64,000 nt of DNA from Liolophura sinensis (Eukaryota > Mollusca > Polyplacophora > Chitonida > Chitonidae), in the NCBI RefSeq assembly GCF_032854445.1, contig NC_088300.1, positions 82,065,084 through 82,129,083 on the forward strand, read 5' to 3'. The notes below the pieces were generated by a model that ran no database searches, was not told the DNA's origin, and saw nothing but the letters and a program-made list of their open reading frames with translations. A program made the position numbers and the translations under genes. Positions 6,421 through 46,400 of the stretch are shown here, one piece after another. Each line of letters starts with the position of its first letter. Position 1 is the first letter of the stretch.

Positions 6421-7938
6421 TATACTATCCAAAAAAAGAAACGCATAACCCGGTTTTTTGCGGAGGTGATGCAGTCTTTTCAATTATGCATAACTAAATA
6501 AGAATTGCTATTCTGCAAATATTTTTTTACACAGATTAAGGAAGGGTCCATATCTAGACAACAAGGCCATCAACTTGAGGTAAGACACTCACAATGAGTC
6601 TCCCACTTGAGTGGAATGTCAGTATCTGTTGTGACCACCACGGGCACGAATAACAGTTCTGACACGCCTTGTCATGGACTGGATGAGACGCTGGATAGAG
6701 GCCTGGGGAATGTTCTGCCACTCCTCCTGCAAACATGCAACTTGCTCTTGAAGCGTTTGGGGTTGACGTTGACGTTGGCGTAGACGTCGATCAAGTTCAT
6801 CCCACAGATGCTCAATTGGGTTAAGATCCGGGGAACGGGACGGCCAGGGTAGCACATTTACATTGTTTTCGGCGAGGAAGTCCCTTGTGACACGTGCCGT
6901 GTGCGGTCTGGCGTTGTCCTGCTGGAACAACTCCCGCTGAACGTCAATGACAGGTAAGAGGTGTGGCTGCAGGATGGTGTCTCGGTAGCGTACGGCCGTA
7001 AGATTTCCCTGAACGTGGACAAGATTTGTACGACCAGTATACGATACTGCTGCCCACATCATCACACTCCCTCCACCAAATCTGTCCACTTGGCGTACGC
7101 AGTTAGGGGCATAACGTTGGTGAGCACGTCTGTAAACCCGGTTTCTACCATCACGTCTCTGCAATAGGAATCTGGACTCATCACTGAACCAAATGCGTTG
7201 CCAGTTGCGTAGATTCCATGCAGTCACGTTGTTACACCATCGGAGGCGATTGGCGCGATGGTGAGGACGCAGCACGATCCCAACATAGGGCCTCCTGGCT
7301 CTCAGTCCATGTTCCCTCAGCCTGCTCCGCACTGTCTGACCTGATATCCTCCTCAGTCCCGGTATGCTGGCTGCTGTGCTTTCAGCTGTAGCACAACGGT
7401 CACGCAAATGGAGGACCCTTATGTAGCGATCTTGGGCTGCTGTAGTGACACGTGGTCGACCTGAACGCCGACGGTCATTTGTTGTCCCAGTATTGTTGTA
7501 GCGGGCAGCAAGCCGTGAAATCGTGCTCTGGCTGACGTGTAGACGCCTAGAAATGGACGATTGGGATTCTCCAGCTTGAAGTCTTCCAATGGCAATATTT
7601 CTTGTGACAGTGTCAAGACGTGGCATGTTGAATCAGCTTGAAAACACCACTTGAAAGACGCCGATTTCCGGCCCGAAGTTGCGGTTTTATAGTCACACAC
7701 TGCATGCTTTCCATGTGTAAGTTCGGCGTGTAAGACTGCACGTGATGCAGTGTGGTGCTGTATTTTTTACTTAACTCAACATTTTCAACCAAGAGATGTT
7801 TTGAGGAATAAAATGTGTGCTAACTGTGACTATTAACAATATTAAAACACATTTTGCTCATGAAATGAAGACAAAATGTATTTATTTCATTTTAAAATAA
7901 AACAAAACACCTATGCGTTTCTTTTTTTGGATAGTATA
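6421..7938 (-). mobile_element. Complete Tc1-like DNA transposon
   Basis: The terminal inverted repeats are identical over 27 bp (6421-6447 and 7912-7938) and begin TATACTATCCAAAAAAAGAA. The terminal TA dinucleotides are the expected target duplication. Inside is one uninterrupted transposase gene on the minus strand. Perfect ends and an open reading frame suggest recent insertion. It sits about 0.4 kb upstream of the FLAD1-like promoter. Confidence 0.97.
6619..7626 (-). CDS. Tc1-like transposase, DD34E
   Basis: The gene encodes 335 residues from an ATG at 7626 to a TGA at 6619. This enzyme cuts and rejoins the transposon ends in the nucleus. Residues 1-55 form the N-terminal helix-turn-helix (RLHVSQSTISRLAARY), followed by the AT-hook-like GRPR at 56-59, which together bind the inverted repeats. 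The DDE catalytic residues are D149 (WFSDESRF), D237 (FQQDNARPHTA) and E272 (DLNPIEHLWDE). Exactly 34 residues separate the second and third, the Tc1 signature. Length is typical of the family and no frameshift or stop is seen. Flanking perfect inverted repeats suggest it could still be active, though activity cannot be judged from sequence. Confidence 0.97.
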   Translation of the reverse strand: MPRLDTVTRNIAIGRLQAGESQSSISRRLHVSQSTISRLAARYNNTGTTNDRRRSGRPRVTTAAQDRYIRVLHLRDRCATAESTAASIPGLRRISGQTVRSRLREHGLRARRPYVGIVLRPHHRANRLRWCNNVTAWNLRNWQRIWFSDESRFLLQRRDGRNRVYRRAHQRYAPNCVRQVDRFGGGSVMMWAAVSYTGRTNLVHVQGNLTAVRYRDTILQPHLLPVIDVQRELFQQDNARPHTARVTRDFLAENNVNVLPWPSRSPDLNPIEHLWDELDRRLRQRQRQPQTLQEQVACLQEEWQNIPQASIQRLIQSMTRRVRTVIRARGGHNRY

Positions 7939-28415: not shown

Positions 28416-31400
28416 CTGAGACAGAACACACAAACACACGTCTTCACTCAGAATGTACTGTCGTACCTACAGCCTGTGACACAAACACACAATGTCTTCA
28501 CTCAGTACCTGCTGTCATACCTGCTACTAAAGACACAAACACACAATTTCTTCAATCAGTACGTACTGTCATACCTGCTACTAGAGACACAAACACACGT
28601 CTTCACTCAGTCTGTACTGTCATACCTGCCACGAGAGACACAAACACATAATGTCTTCACTCAGTACGTGCTGTCATACCTACAACCCCAGACACTAACA
28701 CACAATTTCTTCACTCAGTACCTGCTGTCATACCTGCCAGAAGTCTGTACTGTCATACCTACATGTACAACCTAAGACACCAACACACAATGTCTTCACT
28801 CAGTACATACTGTCATACCTGCCACGAGACACAAACACACAATGTCTTCACTCAGTCTGTACTGTCAAACTAAGACAAACACACAATGTCTTCACTCAGT
28901 CTGTACTGTCAAACTAAGACAAAAACACACAATGTCTTCACTCAGTAAATACTGTCATACCTGCTATGAGAGACACAAACACACAATGTCTGCACTCAGT
29001 ATGTGCTGTCATACCTGTCACTAGAGACACAAACACACAATGTCTTCACTCAGTACATACTGTCATACCTGCCACGAGACACAAACACACAATGTCTTCA
29101 CTCAGTACATGCTGTCATACCTACAACCTCAGACACAAACACACAATGTCTTCACTCAGTATGTACTGTCAAACTAAGACACAAACACACAATGTCTTCA
29201 CTCAGTACGTACTGTCATACCTGCCACTAGAGACACAAACACACAATGTCTTCACCCAGTACATGCTGTCATACTTGCCACGAGAGACACAAACACACAA
29301 TGTCTGCACTCAGTATGTACTGTCATACCTACAGCCTCAGACACAAACACACAATGTCTTCACTCAGTACATACTGTCATACCTGTCACTAGAGACACAA
29401 ACAAACAATGTCTTCACCCAGTACATGCTGTCATACTTGCCACGAGAGACACAAACACAGAATGTCTGCACTCAGTATGTACTGTCATACCTACAGCCTC
29501 AGACACAAACACACAATGTCTTCACTCAGTACATACTGCCATACCTGTCACTAGAGACACAAACAAACAATGTCTTCACCCAGTACATGCTGTCATACTT
29601 GCCACGAGAGACACAAACACACAATGTCTGCACTCAGTATGTACTGTCATACCTACAACCCCAGACACAAACACACAATGTCTTAACTCATTACTTCCTG
29701 TCATACCTACAACCCCAGACACTAACACACAATGTCTTCACTCAGTACGTGCTGTCATACCTACATGTACAAACTAAGACACAAACACACAATGTCTTCA
29801 CTCAGTACATACTGTCGTACCTGCTACGGCAGACACAAACACACAATGTCTTCACTAAGTCTGTACTGTCATACCTACAATCTGAGACACAAACACACAA
29901 TGTCTTTACTCAGTCTGTACTGTCAAACTAAGACACAAACACATAATGTCTTCACTCAGTAAATACTGTCATACCTGCTACGGCAGACACAAACACACAA
30001 TGTCTTTACTCAGTACATACTGTCATCCCTGCCACGAGAGACACAAACACACAATATCTTCACTCAGTACATACTGTCATACCTACAAACTGAGACACAA
30101 ACACACAATGTCTTCACTAAGTCTGTACTGTCATACCTACAATCTGAGACACAAACACACAATGTCTTTACTCAGTCTGTACTGTCAAACTAAGACACAA
30201 ACACATAATGTCTTCACTCAGTAAATACTGTCATACCTGCTACGGCAGACACAAACACACAATGTCTTTACTCAGTACATACTGTCATACCTGCCACTAG
30301 AGACACAAACACACAATGTCTTCACTCAGTCTGTACTGTCATACCTACAATCTGAGACACAAACACACAATGTCTTCACTCAGTACCTGCTGTCATACCT
30401 ACAACCTGTGACACAAACACACAATGTTTTCACTCAGTCTGTACTGTCAAACTAAGACACAAACACATAATGTCTTCACTCAGTAAATACCGTCACACCT
30501 GCTACAACAGACACAAACACACAATGTCTTCACTCAGTAGTGGCTGTCATACCTACAGCCTCAGACACAAACACACAATGTCTTCACTCAGTACATACTG
30601 TCATACCTACAGCCTCAGACACAAACACACAATGTCTTCACTCAGTAGTGGCTGTCATACCTACAACCTCAGACACAAACACACAATGTCTTCACTCAGT
30701 ATGTACTGTCAAACTAAGACACAAACACACAATGTCTTCACTCAGTACGTACTGTCATACCTGCCACTAGAGACACAAACAAACAATGTCTTCACCCAGT
30801 ACATGCTGTCATACTTGCCACGAGAGACACAAACACACAATGTCTGCACTCAGTATGTACTGTCATACCTACAGCCTCAGACACAAACACACAATGTCTT
30901 CACTCAGTACATACTGTCATACCTGTCACTAGAGACACAAACAAACAATGTCTTCACCCAGTACATGCTGTCATACTTGCCACGAAAGACACAAACACAC
31001 AATGTCTGCACTCAGTATGTACTGTCATACCTACAGCCTCAGACACAAACACACAATGTCTTCACTCAGTACATACTGTCATACCTGTCACTAGAGACAC
31101 AAACAAACAATGTCTTCACCCAGTACATGCTGTCATACTTGCCACGAGAGACACAAACACACAATGTCTGCACTCAGTATGTACTGTCATACCTACAACC
31201 CCAGACACAAACACACAATGTCTTCACTCAGTACATACTGTCATACCTGCCACTAGAGACACAAACAAACAATGTCTTCACCCAGTACATGCTGTCATAC
31301 TTGTCACTAGAGACACAAACACACAATGTCTTCACTCAGTACGTGCTGTCATACCTACAACCCCAGACACAAACACACAATGTCTTCACTCAGTACGTGC

Positions 31401-34400
31401 TGTCATACCTGTCACTAGAGACACAAACACACAATGTCTTCACTCAGTACATACTGTCATACTTGCCATGAGAGACACAAACACACAATGTCTGCACTCA
31501 GTATGTGCTGTCATACCTACAACCCCAGACACAAACACACAATGTCTTCACTCAGTACCTGCTGTCATACCTACAATCTGAGACACAAACACATAATGTC
31601 TTCACTCAGTACGTGCTGTCATACCTGTCACTAGAGACACAAACACACAATGTCTTCACTCAGTACATACTGTCATACCTGCCACGAGAGACACAAACAC
31701 ACAATGTCTGCACTCAGCATGTACTGTCATACCTACAACCCCAGACACTAACACACAATGTCTTCACTTAGTAGTGGCTGTCATACCTACAACCTCAGAC
31801 ACAAACACACAACATCTTCACTCAGTACGTGCTGTCATACCTACAACCCCAGACACAATCACACAATGTCTTCACTCAGTACCTGCTGTCATACCTACAA
31901 CCCCAGACACTAACACACAATGTCTTCACTCAGTACGTGCTGTCATACCTGCCACGAGAGACACAAACACACAATGTCTTCACTCAGTACATACTGTCAT
32001 ACCTGCTAGGAGAGACACAAACACACAATGTCTTCACTCAGTACATACTGTCATATCTGCTAGGAGAGACACAAACACACAATGTCTTCACTCAGTCTGT
32101 ACTGTCAAACTAAGACAAACACACACAATGTCTTCACTCAGTCTGTACTGTCAAACTAAGACAAAAACACACAATGTCTTCACTCAGTACATACTGTCAT
32201 ACCTGCTACAGCAGACACAAACACACAATGTCTTCACTCAGTACATACTGTCATACCTGCTACTAGAGACACAAACACACAATGTCTTCACTCAGTACGT
32301 GCTGTCATACCTACAACCCCAGACACAATCACACAATGTCTTCACTCAGTACCTGCTGTCATACCTACAACCCCAGACACTAACACACAATGTCTTCACT
32401 CAGTACGTGCTGTCATACCTGCCACAAGAGATACAAACACACACTGTCATACCTACATGTACAATCTGAGACACAAACACACAATGTCTTCACTCAGTAT
32501 GTACTGTCGTACCTACAACCTCAGACACAAACACACAATGTCTTCACTCAGTAAATACTGTCATACCTACAATCTGAGACACAAACACACAATGTCTTTA
32601 CTCAGTATGTACTGTCGTACCTACAACCTCAGACACAAACACACAATGTCTTCACTCAGTACATACTGTCATACCTACAATCTGAGACACAAATACACTA
32701 TGTCTTCACTCAGTCTGTACTGTCATACCTACAATCTGAGACAAGCACACAATGTCTTTACTCAGAACATACTGTCATACCTGCTACGACAGACACAAAC
32801 ACACAATTGCTTCATTCAGTCTGTACTGTCATACCTACAATCTGAGACACAAACACACAATGTCTTCACTCAGTATGTACTGTCATACCTACAATCTGAG
32901 ACACAAACACATAATGTCTTCACTCAGTAAATACTGTCATACATGCTACCACAGACAAAAACACACAATGTCTTTACTCAGTACATACTGTCATACCTGC
33001 CACTAGAGAGACAAACACACAATGTCTTCACTCAGTATGTGCTGTCATACCTACAATCTGAGACACAAACACACAATGTCTTCACTCAGTACGTACTGTC
33101 ATACCTGCTACGACAGACACAAACACACAATGTCTTCACTCAGTATGTACTGTCGTACCTACAACCTCAGACACAAACACACAATGTCTTCACTCAGTCT
33201 GTACTGTCATACCTACAATCTGAGACACAAACACACAATGTCTTCACTCAGTACATACTGTCATACCTGCTAGGAGAGACACAAACACACAATGTCTTCA
33301 CTCAGTAGTGGCTGTCATACCTACAAACTCAGACACAAACACCCAATGTCTTCACTCACGACGTACTGTCATACCTGCCACATCAGACACAAATACACAA
33401 TGTCTTCACTCAGTATGTACTGTCATACCATTAGTCTGCAGAGTTGTATGTGACTGAAAATCTACATGTACAGTACTAGTGGAAGGCAAGCAACATTGTG
33501 CAAGTCTCACCTCCACAAACTCAGGCTGGATGGTCGTGGAATGTATACCCTCATGGTGAAACATCTCCTTGATCTTGTCAGCCAGAATCATGTACTCATG
33601 TAAGTTCCGACAGCGTATATGAGCAGAGGCTATGATCCTATTGCCGGCTAATGCCCATATATGGAATTCATGAACAGCCAGGACACCTTCAATCTACAAT
33701 GGAAACCACAATTTGGTAGAAATCATACTCTATTACAAATGGAAGTCACATTAAAGTATAACCTCAATACAAAGGTTACATAGATCTAAATCTGGAAGAA
33801 ATCCATCTCTATTATAAATGGAAGACACACTGAAGTATAAACACAATACAAAGGTCAGACTAAACAGTGTTGATGACAGTGGTTCTAAGGGAAGATACAA
33901 TAAACTGTGCTAATGAACACAATGACTGGTGCTAATGAACACAACGGCCGGTGCCAATGACTGGTACCAATGAACACAACGACCTGCGCTAATGAACACA
34001 ATAAAGTCTGCCAATGAAGACAATAGCCTTTGCTAATGAACACAATGACCTGCGCTAATGAACACGATGACCCATCCCTCATGAACACAATGGCCAGTGC
34101 AATGGACACAACGGCCTGTGCCAATGGACACAATGACCCATCCCTCATGAACACAATGACCTGTGCGAATGAACACAATGACCCATCCCTCATGAACACA
34201 ATGGCCAGTGCAATGGACACAATGACCTGTGCCAATGTACACAATGGCCTGTGCCAATGAACACGATGACCTGTGCCAATGAACACCATGGCCCGCGCTA
34301 ATGAACACAATGGCCCGTCCCTCATGAACACAATGGCCCATCCCTCATGAACACAATGGCCCATCCCTAATGAACACAATGGCCCATCCCTCATGAACAC

Positions 34401-40400: not shown

Positions 40401-43400
40401 GCATGGTAGAAATTAGTGGCAAACAACAATCAACTACACTGGCTGTTTGTTCGCTTTCCGCTATCACTGGTATTAAATTGCATGAAAGCACAATGACTTC
40501 CTGCTGCCTGTTTGTGTTGATAAAAGCACAATACTCTTCACAGCACTGCTTACTGCTGCTTTCCAGAGTTGTGTCGAGGAATGCACTGGGTCTGAACCTA
40601 CATGCATTTGTTTCAAGACAAGTAAATGCACTCATAGGGGACGATAAATGATTGGCTGAAAATCCCCTGGCGGAAGTATGCAGGGTGTAATTTTATTGGC
40701 TGTTCAAAGAGTAGGTTTATGAACACTTTCATATGTATATCCAGTAAAACAAGGAGATAATGAAACCTACAATGCAGTATGAGCTTTGATGGTCGGCAGA
40801 TAAGTCAAAATAGGGCAAGTTTCTTTCATAAGCCACAAACATAAGATGAGATTTGTTGAATCCTGCAATCGTATGAAATATGGTATGTTGTATTTTCATT
40901 TGACTAGTGACGGAGCAACTCCACAATCACATGATATGAATGCAGTTTAACAAAGATATTGCATTTCAAAATGAACTAAATGGAGCACTTCAAGAAAACC
41001 CAAAGTGCTGCCATGCAATCTACTTTAATCAGTTAGGAGTCATGCGAATCCCTTTTCGCTATTTTGCCAGACAGACTGAAAGTAAGGTACAAGTGACACA
41101 ACATAATGTTTCTGGTTTCTCTAATATGGCGTATCACATGGCCTCGTACAAGTTTCAGATTAAATATTGATATTGTTACCTAGCACTTCATTTGTGATTT
41201 ACACTTTCTGGGTTTAGCACTGCTTCTTGATATGAAGATTGGAGATAACTGGAGGCCACTCTGGTGCTATAGGAACTGTGTTATTTCCCATCATGTTCAC
41301 CATACAGTCTACATGTTGGTGAGTCTTAGGTCAAACCGTTCAAAACTCCCAAAAATGGTCCCATTCCGAGCACCTACAATCTGTGATATAGCCAGAAAAT
41401 GTAAATCGCATAATAATAACAACATTCTTACTTCAACAACTTTGTAAATGAGCAATCTGATTAGAGGCTAAGAGCATGAATACTTACACAGTGGAATCGT
41501 GGTGCAGAGAATGATGATAACCATGGCAATGCTGAAAATAAACATCAGAAAGACTTTTGGTGGAAGGCATGTTCAACACAATTCATAGAAGATCACCTAC
41601 AAATGCCATTAAGTCCTTCTTAACATGATCTGTCTGCCCAAAGTGGGGATTGAACCACCGGCTGACCAGCTGTCTTGCTACATGTTAGGTTTGAGAGCTG
41701 ATGTGACCAGCTGTCTTACCACATGTTTGGATTGAGAGCTGATGTGACCAACTGTCCCTTAAGCCAGGGTTGAGACTGAACCACCAGCTGATATGACCAG
41801 CTGTCTTACCTCATGCCATGGTTGGGATTGAACCACCAGCTGTCTTACCTCATGCCACGGTTGGGATTGAACCACTAGCTGTCTTACCTCATGCCACGGT
41901 TGGGATTGAACCACCAGCTGTCTTACCTCATGCCAGGGTTGGGATTAAACTACCAGCTTATGTGACCAACTGTCTTACCTCATGCAAGGGTTATGACTGA
42001 ACTACCGGCTGATGTAACCAGCTGTCTTACCTCAAGCCAGGGTTAGTAGCTGATGTGACCAGCTATCTTCCCTTACCCTGGAATTGGGATTGAATAACCA
42101 GCTGATGTGTCCAGCTATTTCACCTCATGCCAAGGTTGGGATTAAACTACCAGCTTATGTGACCAACTGTCTTACCTCATGCAAGGGTTGTGACTGAACT
42201 ACCGGCTGATGTAACCAGCTGTCTTACCTCAAGCCAGGGTTAGTAGCTGATGTGACCAGCTATCTTCCCTTACCCTGGAATTGGGATTGAATAACCAGCT
42301 GATGTGTCCAGCTATTTCACCTCATGCCAGGGTTGGGATTGAACCATCAGCTGATGCATCCAGCTGTCTTACCTCATGCCAGGGTTGAAATTGAACCACC
42401 AGCTGTCTTACCTCATGCCAGGGTTGAAAATGAACCACCAGCTGTCTTACCTCAAGCCAGGGTTGAGACTGAACCACCAGCTGATATGACCGGCTGTCTT
42501 ACCTCATGCCATGGTTGGGATTGAACCACCAGCTGTCTTACCTCATGCCACGGTTGGGATTGAACCACCAGCTGTCTTACCTCATGCCACGGTTGGGATT
42601 GAACCACCAGCTGTCTTACCTCATGCCAGGGTTGGGATTAAACTACCAGCTTATGTGACCAACTGTCTTACCTCATGCAAGGGTTATGACTGAACTACCG
42701 GCTGATGTAACCAGCTGTCTTACCTCAAGCCAGGGTTAGTAGCTGATGTGACCAGCTATCTTCCCTTACCCTGGAATTGGGATTGAATAACCAGCTGATG
42801 TGTCCAGCTATTTCACCTCATGCCAGCGTTGGGATTGAACCATCAGCTGATGCATCCAGCTGTCTTACCTCATGCCAGGGTTGAGATTGAATCACCAGCT
42901 GATTTCACCAACTGTCTTACCTCATGCCAGGGTCGACGTAATACTTCCAGTCTCCCTTAGCAAACCAGATGACTAAGGCACTGATGATGACGACCACAGA
43001 GCCCAGGGCGTCACCCAGGATGTGGAGGAATGCACCCCTCATGTTCAGCTGGGATCCAGATGCTGATAACATACAGTCACAACAATAACTACACAGACAA
43101 CATGGAATATTTTGTTTTTTTACTTGGACTGGTGAACAAAGAAAATGCCTACTCCACCAATGTACTATAAGTAAATCTTTCCTAAGGCATTATAAAATGG
43201 GTCAATGATTAGAAGGTCAAGTCAATATGTGTTACCTTTACAGAACAAACTTATCCCTACAATATGTAGAAATGCTAATGTGGTACATGCATATGTTTTC
43301 AGTGTATATCAGTTCTTGCAACCTAATACCTTTGTATACATGTGACATCAATTCATGAATTAACATCAACGTAAATATGGGAGTCACAAATACCTACAAA

Positions 43401-46400
43401 ACTCAACTTCAGTAAACTTTATTGAGACACTGGTCCCACAGAAATGAGTAGAGGAAGGCTTCACTCACCGGCCTTTCCCCCTTTGGTGTGAGAGTGGCCA
43501 TGATGCCCCTCCTCTATTTCCACGACAATGCTGCCCTCAGAGGTTCTATGCGGAGGAGGGTTCTCTGCAACTAGGGCCTCTGCCTCTGCCCCATGGGAAT
43601 GTGCCCCTCCCCCGTGGGAATGACCTATAACATACAAACGAGATAACTGGTAACATGTGTTGTACAACAGAAACAGAAGGTTGTACAACAGAAACAGAAG
43701 GTTGTACAACAGAAACAGAAGGTTGTACAACTGAAGCAGAAGGTTGTACAACTGAAGCAGCAGGTTTGCCAGATAATAGCCATCAGTTACAAACCAGCAT
43801 GATTACTCTGTGATGTGGTGAGCACATCTGATAGCTGTAGGAACTTCCCGTGGCTGTATTGTGGTGAGCACACCTGACAGCTAAAAAGGCGTCCTTGTGG
43901 CTGTGATGTGGTGAGGACACACATGACAGCTGTAAGAGCGTCCTTGTGGCTGTGATGTCGTGAGCACACACCTGACAGCTGTAAGAGTGTCCTTGTGGCT
44001 GTGATGTGGTGAGCACACACCTGACAGCTGTCAGAGCATCCTTGTGGCTGTGATGTGCTGAGCACACACCTGACAGCTGTAAGAGTGTCCTTGTGGCTGT
44101 GATGTGCTGAGCACACACCTGACAGCTTTACGAGCGTCCTTGTGGCTGTGATGTGCTGAGCACACACCTGACAGCTGTAAGAGTGTCCTTGTGGCTGTGA
44201 TGTGGTGAGCACACACCTGACAGCTGTAAGAGCATCCTTGTGGCTGTGATATGGTGAGCACATCTGACAGCTGTAAGAGCGTCCTTGTGGCTGTGATGTG
44301 GTGAGCACACACCTGACAGCTGTAAGAGCATCCTTGTGGCTGTGATGTGCTGAGCACACACCTGACAGCTGTAAGAGCGTCCTTGTGGCTGTGATATGGT
44401 GAGCACACCTGACAGCTGTAAGAGCATCCTTGTGGCTGTGATGTGGTCAGTACACCGCTGACAGCTTTAAGAGCGCCTTTGTGGCTGTGATGTGGTGAAC
44501 ACACACTGGACAGGTGTAAGAGCGTCCTTGTCACTGTGATGTGGTGAGCACACCTGACACTCTAAGAGCGTCCTTGTGGCTGTGATGTGGTGAGCACACA
44601 CCTGACAGCTGTAAGAGCTTCCCTCTGATGTGGCCCCTTGTAAGAGCATACTTACCGTGGCTTCCAAACAGAAAAAGCCCAAGAACATTCACTAGTAAAC
44701 CCACAGCTCCAACAATCAGTAACAGCTTAGGGTCTTCAATCTTCTCAGGCTCCACCAATCGTTTGAGAGATTCCACCAGAATAGAGAAGCACAGTGCTAA
44801 AAGAAAGACAGCATTGACCAGCGCTCCCAGTACCTCTGCACGTGCCCAGCCGAACGTGTTTTTAGAGGTGCTCCACTTGGCTATCTGTCAAGGTCAAAAA
44901 CAAATATATTGTCAGTAAGTTTATACAGGGGTTAGGGCAGATATGTTATGGCTCTTGCCTAAAATCCTTGGGCGGCAACCAAGCAAACACCCTTTCCAAA
45001 ATGAATATTGTTCAGCATAATTCCATGCTTAAGAATTTCTCAGTTATTCAATGGCTATCATGTTTGTGAGCATGGGGCCTCAATGGTTAAGGGCCTCATT
45101 GGTCAGGAGCTTCAGTAGTCTGGGGCATCATTTTGTCAGGGGATCATAAATGTGTTCATGACATTACAATGTGGTCCCTTACTGTGCATCCTACCGTATG
45201 TGTTGATGACATCACAATATGGTCCCTTGTAGTATGCCCTGTTGTATGGGATGATGACATCACAATGTGGTCCCTTACTGTGTGTCCTGCTGTATGTGTT
45301 GATGACATCACCATGTGGTCCCTTATAGTGTGTCCTGCTATATGTGTTGATGACATTACAATGTGGTCCCTTATAGTGTGTCCTGCTGTATGTGTTGATG
45401 ACATTACAATGTGGTCCCTTATAGTGTGTCCTGCTGTATGTGTTGATAACATTACAATGTGGCCCCTTATAGTGTGTCCTTCTGTATGTGTTGATGACAT
45501 TACAATGTGGTCCCTTATAGTGTGTCCTGCTGTATGTGTTGATGACATCACAGTGTGGTCCCTTATACTGTGTCCTGCTGTATGTGTTGATGACATCACA
45601 ATGTGGTCCCTTATAGTGTGTCCTGCTGTATGTGTTGATGACATTACAATGTGGTCCCTTATAGTGTGTCCTGCTGTATGTGTTGATAACATTACAATGT
45701 GGCCCCTTATAGTGTGTCCTTCTGTATGTGTTGATGACATTACAATGTGGTCCCTTATAGTGTGTCCTGCTGTATGTGTTGATGACATCACAGTGTGGTC
45801 CCTTATACTATGTCCTGCTGTATGTGTTGATGACATCACAATGTGGTCCCTTATAGTGTGTCCTGCTGTATGTGTTGATGACATTACAATGTGGTCCCTT
45901 ATAGTGTGTCCTGCTGTATGTGTTGATAACATTACAATGTGGCCCCTTATAGTGTGTCCTTCTGTATGTGTTGATGACATTACAATGTGGTCCCTTATAG
46001 TGTGTCCTGCTGTATGTGTTGATGACATCACAGTGTGGTCCCTTATACTGTGTCCTGCTGTATGTGTTGATGACATCACAATGTGGTCCCTTATAGTGTG
46101 TCCTACTGTATGTGTTGATGACATCACAAAGTGGTCCCTTATACTTCGCCCTGCTGTATGTGTTGATGACATCACAGTGTGGTCCCTTGTAGTGTGTCCT
46201 GCTGTATGTGTTGATGGCATTACAATGTGGTCCCTTATAGGGTGTCCTGCTGTATGTGTTGATGACATCACCATGTGGTCCCTTATAGTGTGTCCTGTTG
46301 TATGTGTTGATGACATTACAAACAATACATTATAATTTAATCCCTGGAGTCTTACCCGGACTGCAGCAAAGGCTACAATGAGTGAGACAACGTCAGATAA

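Follow-up and report, generated by a model that had tools for sequence, protein, structure and literature searches.

The window analysed here, a 64,000-nt stretch of the genome of a chiton (G000:C6:82065084-82129083), carries on its minus strand a gene that, judged by homology, is a zinc transporter of the SLC30/ZnT family. The assembly was first published as that of Liolophura japonica (available text of PMC11068029), and the same authors now call the animal L. sinensis (PMC12441733). Exon 4 (42921-43062, minus strand; 142 nt) has an open frame, SGSQLNMRG...YYVDPGM plus the bases AG, and is separated from exon 5 (41488-41531, minus strand; CATTGCCATGGTT...CCACTGT) by intron 4 (41532-42920, minus strand; 1389 nt), most of which is a tandem array. 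Both exons were assigned from Pfam and PDB matches. Translated together, they matched PF01545 in a single stretch (residues 5-61 of 61; E 1.5e-12), as well as the PDB entries for SLC30A1 (E 3.9e-13) and SLC30A10 (E 1.1e-12; residues 4-61, a single stretch). The exon 4/5 junction falls after residue 46, inside the stretches aligned to PF01545 and SLC30A10; the alignment to human SLC30A1 at the junction is a separate piece, YLDPTLCVVMVCILLYTTYPL versus YVDPGMSIAMVIIILCTTIPL, whose i-Evalue of 1.3 is weak taken alone. Because the homology runs through both exons, exon 4 ends at 42921, where the first-pass annotation had placed it, and the authentic 5' splice site is GAG/GTAAGA (42915-42923, minus strand; GT at 42920-42919). 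A genome-wide search for a spliced retrocopy of the gene (632 contigs, 609,464,459 bases) returned the gene's own exons 4 and 5 only.

Two further features were recorded along the way. A 337-aa open frame on the minus strand of the window (6619-7632) resembles, by its motifs, a Tc1-type transposase. Elsewhere in the assembly, COX1 is matched seven times on a single strand of contig G000:C99 (108,685 bases), at intervals of about 15.5 kb; the contig is a head-to-tail concatemer of the mitochondrial genome and probably an assembly product.

The array in intron 4 (41640-42933, minus strand; edge at 42933 as placed by TRF) appears from its unit list, junction copies and shuffle tests to be seeded by the donor. 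Beyond the first unit it holds 27 derived ones, most of them 39-52 nt in length, each made up of the end of the exon (up to about 16 nt), a donor or degenerate donor, and the start of the intron. Anchored on the donor, the count is 28 units including the first, with measured spacings of 39, 40, 41, 46, 47, 50 and 52 nt; looser donor spellings include three GGTGAAATAG and three CAGGGTAAGGG. The 19-base junction word CTGGCATGAGGTAAGACAG, searched with up to two mismatches allowed, gave 19 matches in the window, every one with 0 or 1 mismatch: the junction itself (42912-42930), 5 exact copies and 13 one-mismatch copies, all on the minus strand between 41801 and 42930. The chance expectation was 0.00 (100 shuffles). 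The initial observation that the junction CTGGCATGAG/GTAAGACAG recurs in about 18 units is thus borne out by 18 intron copies with at most one mismatch, 5 of them exact, against 0 expected.

It had also been proposed that the array was seeded across the exon boundary, with exon bases in the unit, and an exon-side match no better than chance had been named as evidence to the contrary. About 16 exon bases are copied, the best copy equalling TCGACCCTGGCATGAG at 15 of 16 bases, and the exon side exceeded chance in the shuffles. For exon bases -20 to -1 alone the array gave a score of 27, whereas 1000 dinucleotide shuffles did not exceed 22; for 30 exon bases, 1 of 1000 shuffles reached 27 (0 of 500 in a separate run), and the junction from -30 to +32 scored 65 (maximum 30 in 500 shuffles). 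A control exon segment off the junction (-60 to -31) gave no signal against the array (139 of 500 shuffles). Together with the homology across exons 4 and 5, these junction-copy and shuffle statistics led us to reject a chance match or a wrongly placed exon boundary. The copied exon bases encode DPGM/S within a conserved protein stretch that continues into exon 5, from which we infer that copying ran from exon to intron. A 581-base piece of the array found no other match in the whole assembly, in a search that scores the best candidates only and skips very common words.

The copied donors are close equivalents of the real one, as had been claimed: 18 of the 22 scored decoys have the true site's 9-base score and 4 are lower (donor-score weights were entered by hand), so local strength cannot pick out the true donor. 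The junction is in phase 2 (ATG AG/G TAA), and a transcript retaining the intron reaches the in-frame TAA (42917-42919, minus strand), its first stop, at +2; the open reading frame 42917-43189 ends there in DPGMR. In this frame any use of a decoy would end the protein at once, adding no repeat-encoded residues, and every decoy would yield one identical truncated protein (...DPGMR) with exon junctions still downstream. Such mRNAs would presumably undergo nonsense-mediated decay.

Other introns of the gene also contain arrays, and we asked of those in introns 1, 2 and 7 whether they span a splice junction in the same manner (a 'mirage', in the amphioxus term discussed below). The intron 2 array (43808-44622, minus strand; the exon ends at 44656) was characterized by junction test and unit list. 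It consists of units AGCCAC- - -AAGGACGCTCTTACA from which the donor motif has been lost except in the degenerate last unit. The intron 2 donor junction AGCCACGGTAAGTATGCTCTTACA aligns with the array unit AGCCAC- - -AAGGATGCTCTTACA, and the junction from -20 to +25 scored 28 against the array (0 of 1000 shuffles reached this, maximum 25); the exon side alone was not significant against it (348 of 1000 shuffles). It is likely that this array was also seeded by its donor and is related to the one in intron 4, but has since decayed. The array in intron 1 (45150-46321) was rejected as a mirage, with 205, 999 and 128 of 1000 shuffles reaching its scores. Most of intron 7 is taken up by a 54-nt repeat in about 94 copies (window positions 28428-33429) that stops 12 bases before exon 8 (28415). 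It matches the intron side of the acceptor (0 of 300 shuffles); no match was found to the exon side of the acceptor (205 of 300) or to the donor (45 and 8 of 300).

To look for similar arrays elsewhere, the genome was searched for three AGGTAAGT words 30-60 bases apart, which gave 672 matches. From among the matches listed, 20 distinct arrays were inspected, all on contig C1, some of the pieces falling short of the 5' edge of their array (loci L042 and L008 among them). In seven of the 20 the array sets in at a coding exon whose final bases recur in the units; three of these have homology support: an exon of a core-2/I-branching enzyme (L017; Pfam E 1.5e-6), a GH31 exon (L041; E 7e-13; G000:C1:26351900-26353700) and an exon of the RNA polymerase III subunit RPC1 (L039; PDB E 5.9e-8). 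At the RPC1 exon, the 31 copied bases (counted by eye) encode DKYMRAKIEP, aligned to DKYMRAQMEP of RPC1. At the other four (L007, L044, L046 and L048), an open frame and junction similarity point to a coding-exon start. The deoxyribose-phosphate aldolase match of L044 (E 0.006) is far below the family cut-off, and Pfam and PDB searches gave that identity no support; nor did they support the ARFGEF-type protein that we take L046 to resemble. The array at L045 may start at a 29-nt exon. At L018 (G000:C1:3804601-3807683) a polycystin-2 match (E 0.06) weakly supports the exon identity and junction; the exon may end in a GC donor (CACAG/GCGAGT), followed by arrays of stronger GTAAGT copies. The remaining 11 arrays are without exon assignment (L008, L009, L013, L015, L038, L040, L042, L043, L047, L049 and L050). 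In the GH31 gene, the 39-nt junction repeat is in frame and stop-free over the 264 bases available, so that decoy use there would add 13-residue protein repeats.

Tandem triples of AGGTAAGT numbered 672 against 26,582 single words (2.5%), compared with 509 against 29,090 (1.7%) for the reversed word, and those of AGGTGAGT numbered 1362 against 24,391 (5.6%), compared with 490 against 18,804 (2.6%) for its reverse; these counts are matches clustered in arrays rather than independent arrays, and the ratios are indicative only. An acceptor word gave 336 tandem triples versus 141 for its reversed control (not normalised). The counts do not support the idea that arrays grow on the donor word alone, AGGTAAGT being only moderately over-represented and the acceptor word exceeding its control too. 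As an indication, donor-bearing arrays show no sign of depletion. In one array (G000:C1:5645160-5646091), a candidate mirage of the acceptor side, TTTTCAGG recurs without mismatch about 22 times, once every 44 nt.

The reverse approach, blind to repeats, started from 52 donors, 34 of myosin-head exons and 18 of ABC-transporter exons (19 loci, one without a donor call). The myosin exons were 34 of 81 hits, chosen by short stop-free open frames, a choice that may miss arrays staying open. In the first exon-to-array test a 10-base overlap between query and target gave a trivial score of 20, so only scores above 20 were considered. Copies of the junction followed 3 of the 52 donors (5.8%, 95% interval 1.2-15.9%), a rough estimate since donors were assigned by score and a few were poor (lowest -1.3). 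One (L058) has a 66-nt unit with 7 further copies, in which 16 of 16 exon bases equal the consensus, and another (L063) a 32-nt unit with 8 exon bases in the alignment. In the third (L029; G000:C1:89874318-89877527), an ABC-transporter exon end and donor are duplicated once, 64 nt apart; the second donor outscores the first, and read-through reaches a TAA at +2. This duplication resembles a mirage at its earliest stage. Two significant loci, L067 and L069, were left out as partial, with 6 and 0 exon bases aligned and changed donors; counting them would give 5 of 52. At the myosin locus L084 (G000:C1:26642219-26643249), a similar copy of the exon end and donor lies 484 nt downstream. It was rejected as a mirage, although significant (0 of 300 shuffles), as the copy is probably an alternative exon, and was kept in the denominator.

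Across the ten arrays examined for donor strength, at least one decoy outscores the true donor in eight, a figure biased by the fact that seven of those eight were found through the strong-donor search. An in-frame stop lies ahead of the first decoy in 7 of 10 arrays, and the frame stays open past several decoys in L017 and L041 and past the first in the weakly supported L018. Nine arrays were scored for conservation, of which ZnT, L058 and L063 are independent of the donor-word search. The donor core is conserved at least as well as the rest of the unit in ZnT (0.932 versus 0.844), L058 (1.000 versus 0.901), L063, L039, L041, L046 and L048, and slightly less well in L017 (0.900 versus 0.939) and L007 (0.915 versus 0.918). 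GT is retained in 22 of 26 scored units of ZnT, 7 of 7 of L058, 8 of 18 of L063 and 37 of 40 of L017. Given these figures, the decoys are neither absent nor clearly purged.

We consider it fairly probable that the array is a by-product of an unstable repeat and does little harm, since it is position that selects the first donor. A minisatellite would have arisen at the exon-intron junction and expanded through unequal exchange or slippage, its units taking in the donor along with up to about 16 bases of the exon and so producing a mirage; this growth may be no different from ordinary minisatellite expansion in a minisatellite-rich genome. The spliceosome would then hold to copy 1 through position rather than local sequence, copy 1 being transcribed first and lying closest to the 3' splice site of exon 4 itself, 142 nt away. 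In exon definition, U1 bound at a donor promotes use of the 3' splice site at the other end of the exon, upstream of it (available text of PMC8724738). If this process decides donor choice in the zinc-transporter gene, it would commit copy 1 ahead of the copies that follow it, whether in time or by preference, and those copies would be tolerated because they are seldom used and because any leak would run into the immediate stop and, presumably, nonsense-mediated decay.

Several observations bear on a choice by position. As local strength is equal in most decoys and masking by RNA structure is not general (see below), position remains as an explanation, and it is favoured by the uneroded decoy cores of ZnT and L058 and by the like architecture at homology-supported exons (GH31, core-2/I-branching enzyme, RPC1 and myosin). 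Amphioxus mirages reportedly do not disturb splicing (available text of PMC3087553), which speaks for position as well. Against it, in mammalian systems the intron-proximal donor is often favoured among competing strong donors, the reverse of what is needed here; the GT count of L063, the slightly less conserved cores of L017 and L007 and the lost motif of intron 2 suggest that decoys may sometimes be selected away, and the accessibility of the true donor in the zinc-transporter gene suggests that structure could contribute there.

A different reading, which we regard as rather doubtful, is that a real fraction of transcripts uses the decoys and ends at the same stop and in decay, so that the output of the zinc transporter would be held back by the array, the more so or less so according to copy number. 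Most decoys do match the true site's local strength and were copied with exon bases, the stop at +2 makes each decoy transcript a candidate for decay, and an in-frame stop precedes the first decoy in the majority of arrays noted above. The open frames of L017, L041 and L018 argue that the stop is not a common design, and a phase-2 intron starting with GTAA yields a stop by the genetic code alone. In its widest form the argument would be that in this chiton about 1 intron in 20 is headed by copies of its own donor, a number of which outdo the true site, and that such ladders are in use: in ZnT and genes like it, splicing would be siphoned into decay in proportion to array length, with hypervariable minisatellites tuning output, and frame-keeping cases such as L041, with its 39-nt units, could add short protein repeats. 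We hold this to be distinctly improbable.

Alternatively, the units may fold together and hide the decoys, leaving copy 1, beside unique exon sequence, open. The modelled accessibility of the true donor in the zinc-transporter gene fits this, ranking 1 of 23 (1 of 26 in a wider list) at two window sizes and exceeding the value of the median decoy by about 6- to 7-fold. Over the ten arrays, the mean normalised ranks of 0.52 and 0.54 (0.5 expected) are on average no better than chance, and the true donor of L017 ranks 36 and 35 of 37. Masking was accordingly rejected as a general answer, and we judge it very unlikely as the explanation here.

There is also a slim chance that the array is retained because its many U1 sites keep the intron from being polyadenylated too early (telescripting) or because it serves as a splicing enhancer. 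U1-type sites are dense in ZnT intron 4 and in other introns, and the donor cores of ZnT and L058 are not eroded; the intron 1 array of the gene has no donor-like word scoring at least 8, which argues that array growth does not require them, though intron 2 has 9 such words and intron 7 has 32, none reaching 9.5. Finally, we give almost no credence to an unrelated minisatellite with a chance donor-like word, or an assembly error: although minisatellites abound in the window (113 TRF rows, many overlapping) and reversed control words occur in tandem too, the exon bases match in register, the units differ among themselves, HiFi reads underlie the assembly as published (available text of PMC11068029), and other exons behave alike, with up to about 38 exon bases copied (L017, by eye).

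The arrays may be of use beyond this gene. Constructed reporters are the usual means of studying how the spliceosome chooses among donors of equal quality. This genome appears to supply natural series in which near-identical donors were copied together with their exon context and differ in copy number, a subunit of RNA polymerase III being among the genes concerned. Exclusive use of copy 1, even beside stronger decoys, would show positional choice directly; a ladder of junctions would make minisatellite length a possible regulator. The value lies in scale, as the genome seems to hold many natural splice-site ladders.

Several known systems resemble the zinc-transporter array in part. Tandem alternative donors and cryptic 5' splice sites also present several usable donors following one exon, whereas the copies here are near-identical, number up to 27 and come from repeat expansion. 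A recursive splice site is a functional 3' splice site, with a pyrimidine tract and YAG, directly before a donor; AG/GT is likewise juxtaposed in the units of the array, but by eye these have no long pyrimidine tract and carry G before AG (GAG/GT), so that they do not seem to resemble 3' splice sites. Intron gain by tandem duplication of a segment with a proto-splice site has been described (the Rogers model as given in PMC3087553, a potato RdRp in PMC4974935, and Drosophila in PMC2891723, each in its available text). It shares with our case the tandem copy of exon sequence and splice site, of which L029, an ABC-transporter exon end in two copies, is one instance; it differs in that the zinc-transporter array sits inside an existing intron.

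The closest known relatives are the 'mirages' of amphioxus, minisatellite-like tandem duplications across an exon-intron boundary in Adh3, BflGb6, BflGb9 and TnC, with related repeats in PGBD5 (available text of PMC3087553 and PMC3902484). Both intron boundaries can be affected, and Adh3 and globin RT-PCR data suggested normal splicing despite the mirages (PMC3087553, available text). In the chiton gene, too, the tandem unit spans the authentic exon-intron boundary and adjoins it, the units hold exon bases and the splice site, and many carry AG/GT; their length lies within the 10-72 bp range given for Adh3 in the same text. The differences are the host, a mollusc rather than the cephalochordates of the published range; the number of units, 27 derived ones against 3 and 6 in the BflGb6 haplotypes described there; and the evidence, since other donors of the chiton genome were surveyed too and the chiton case is read from sequence. 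A search of the literature outside subscription papers found, among the matches listed, no report of mirages in molluscs. On these likenesses, the array in the predicted zinc transporter is a mirage and, within the literature searched, the first found in a mollusc, so that what was a peculiarity of amphioxus now reaches into the molluscs, and mirages may arise wherever introns are rich in minisatellites.
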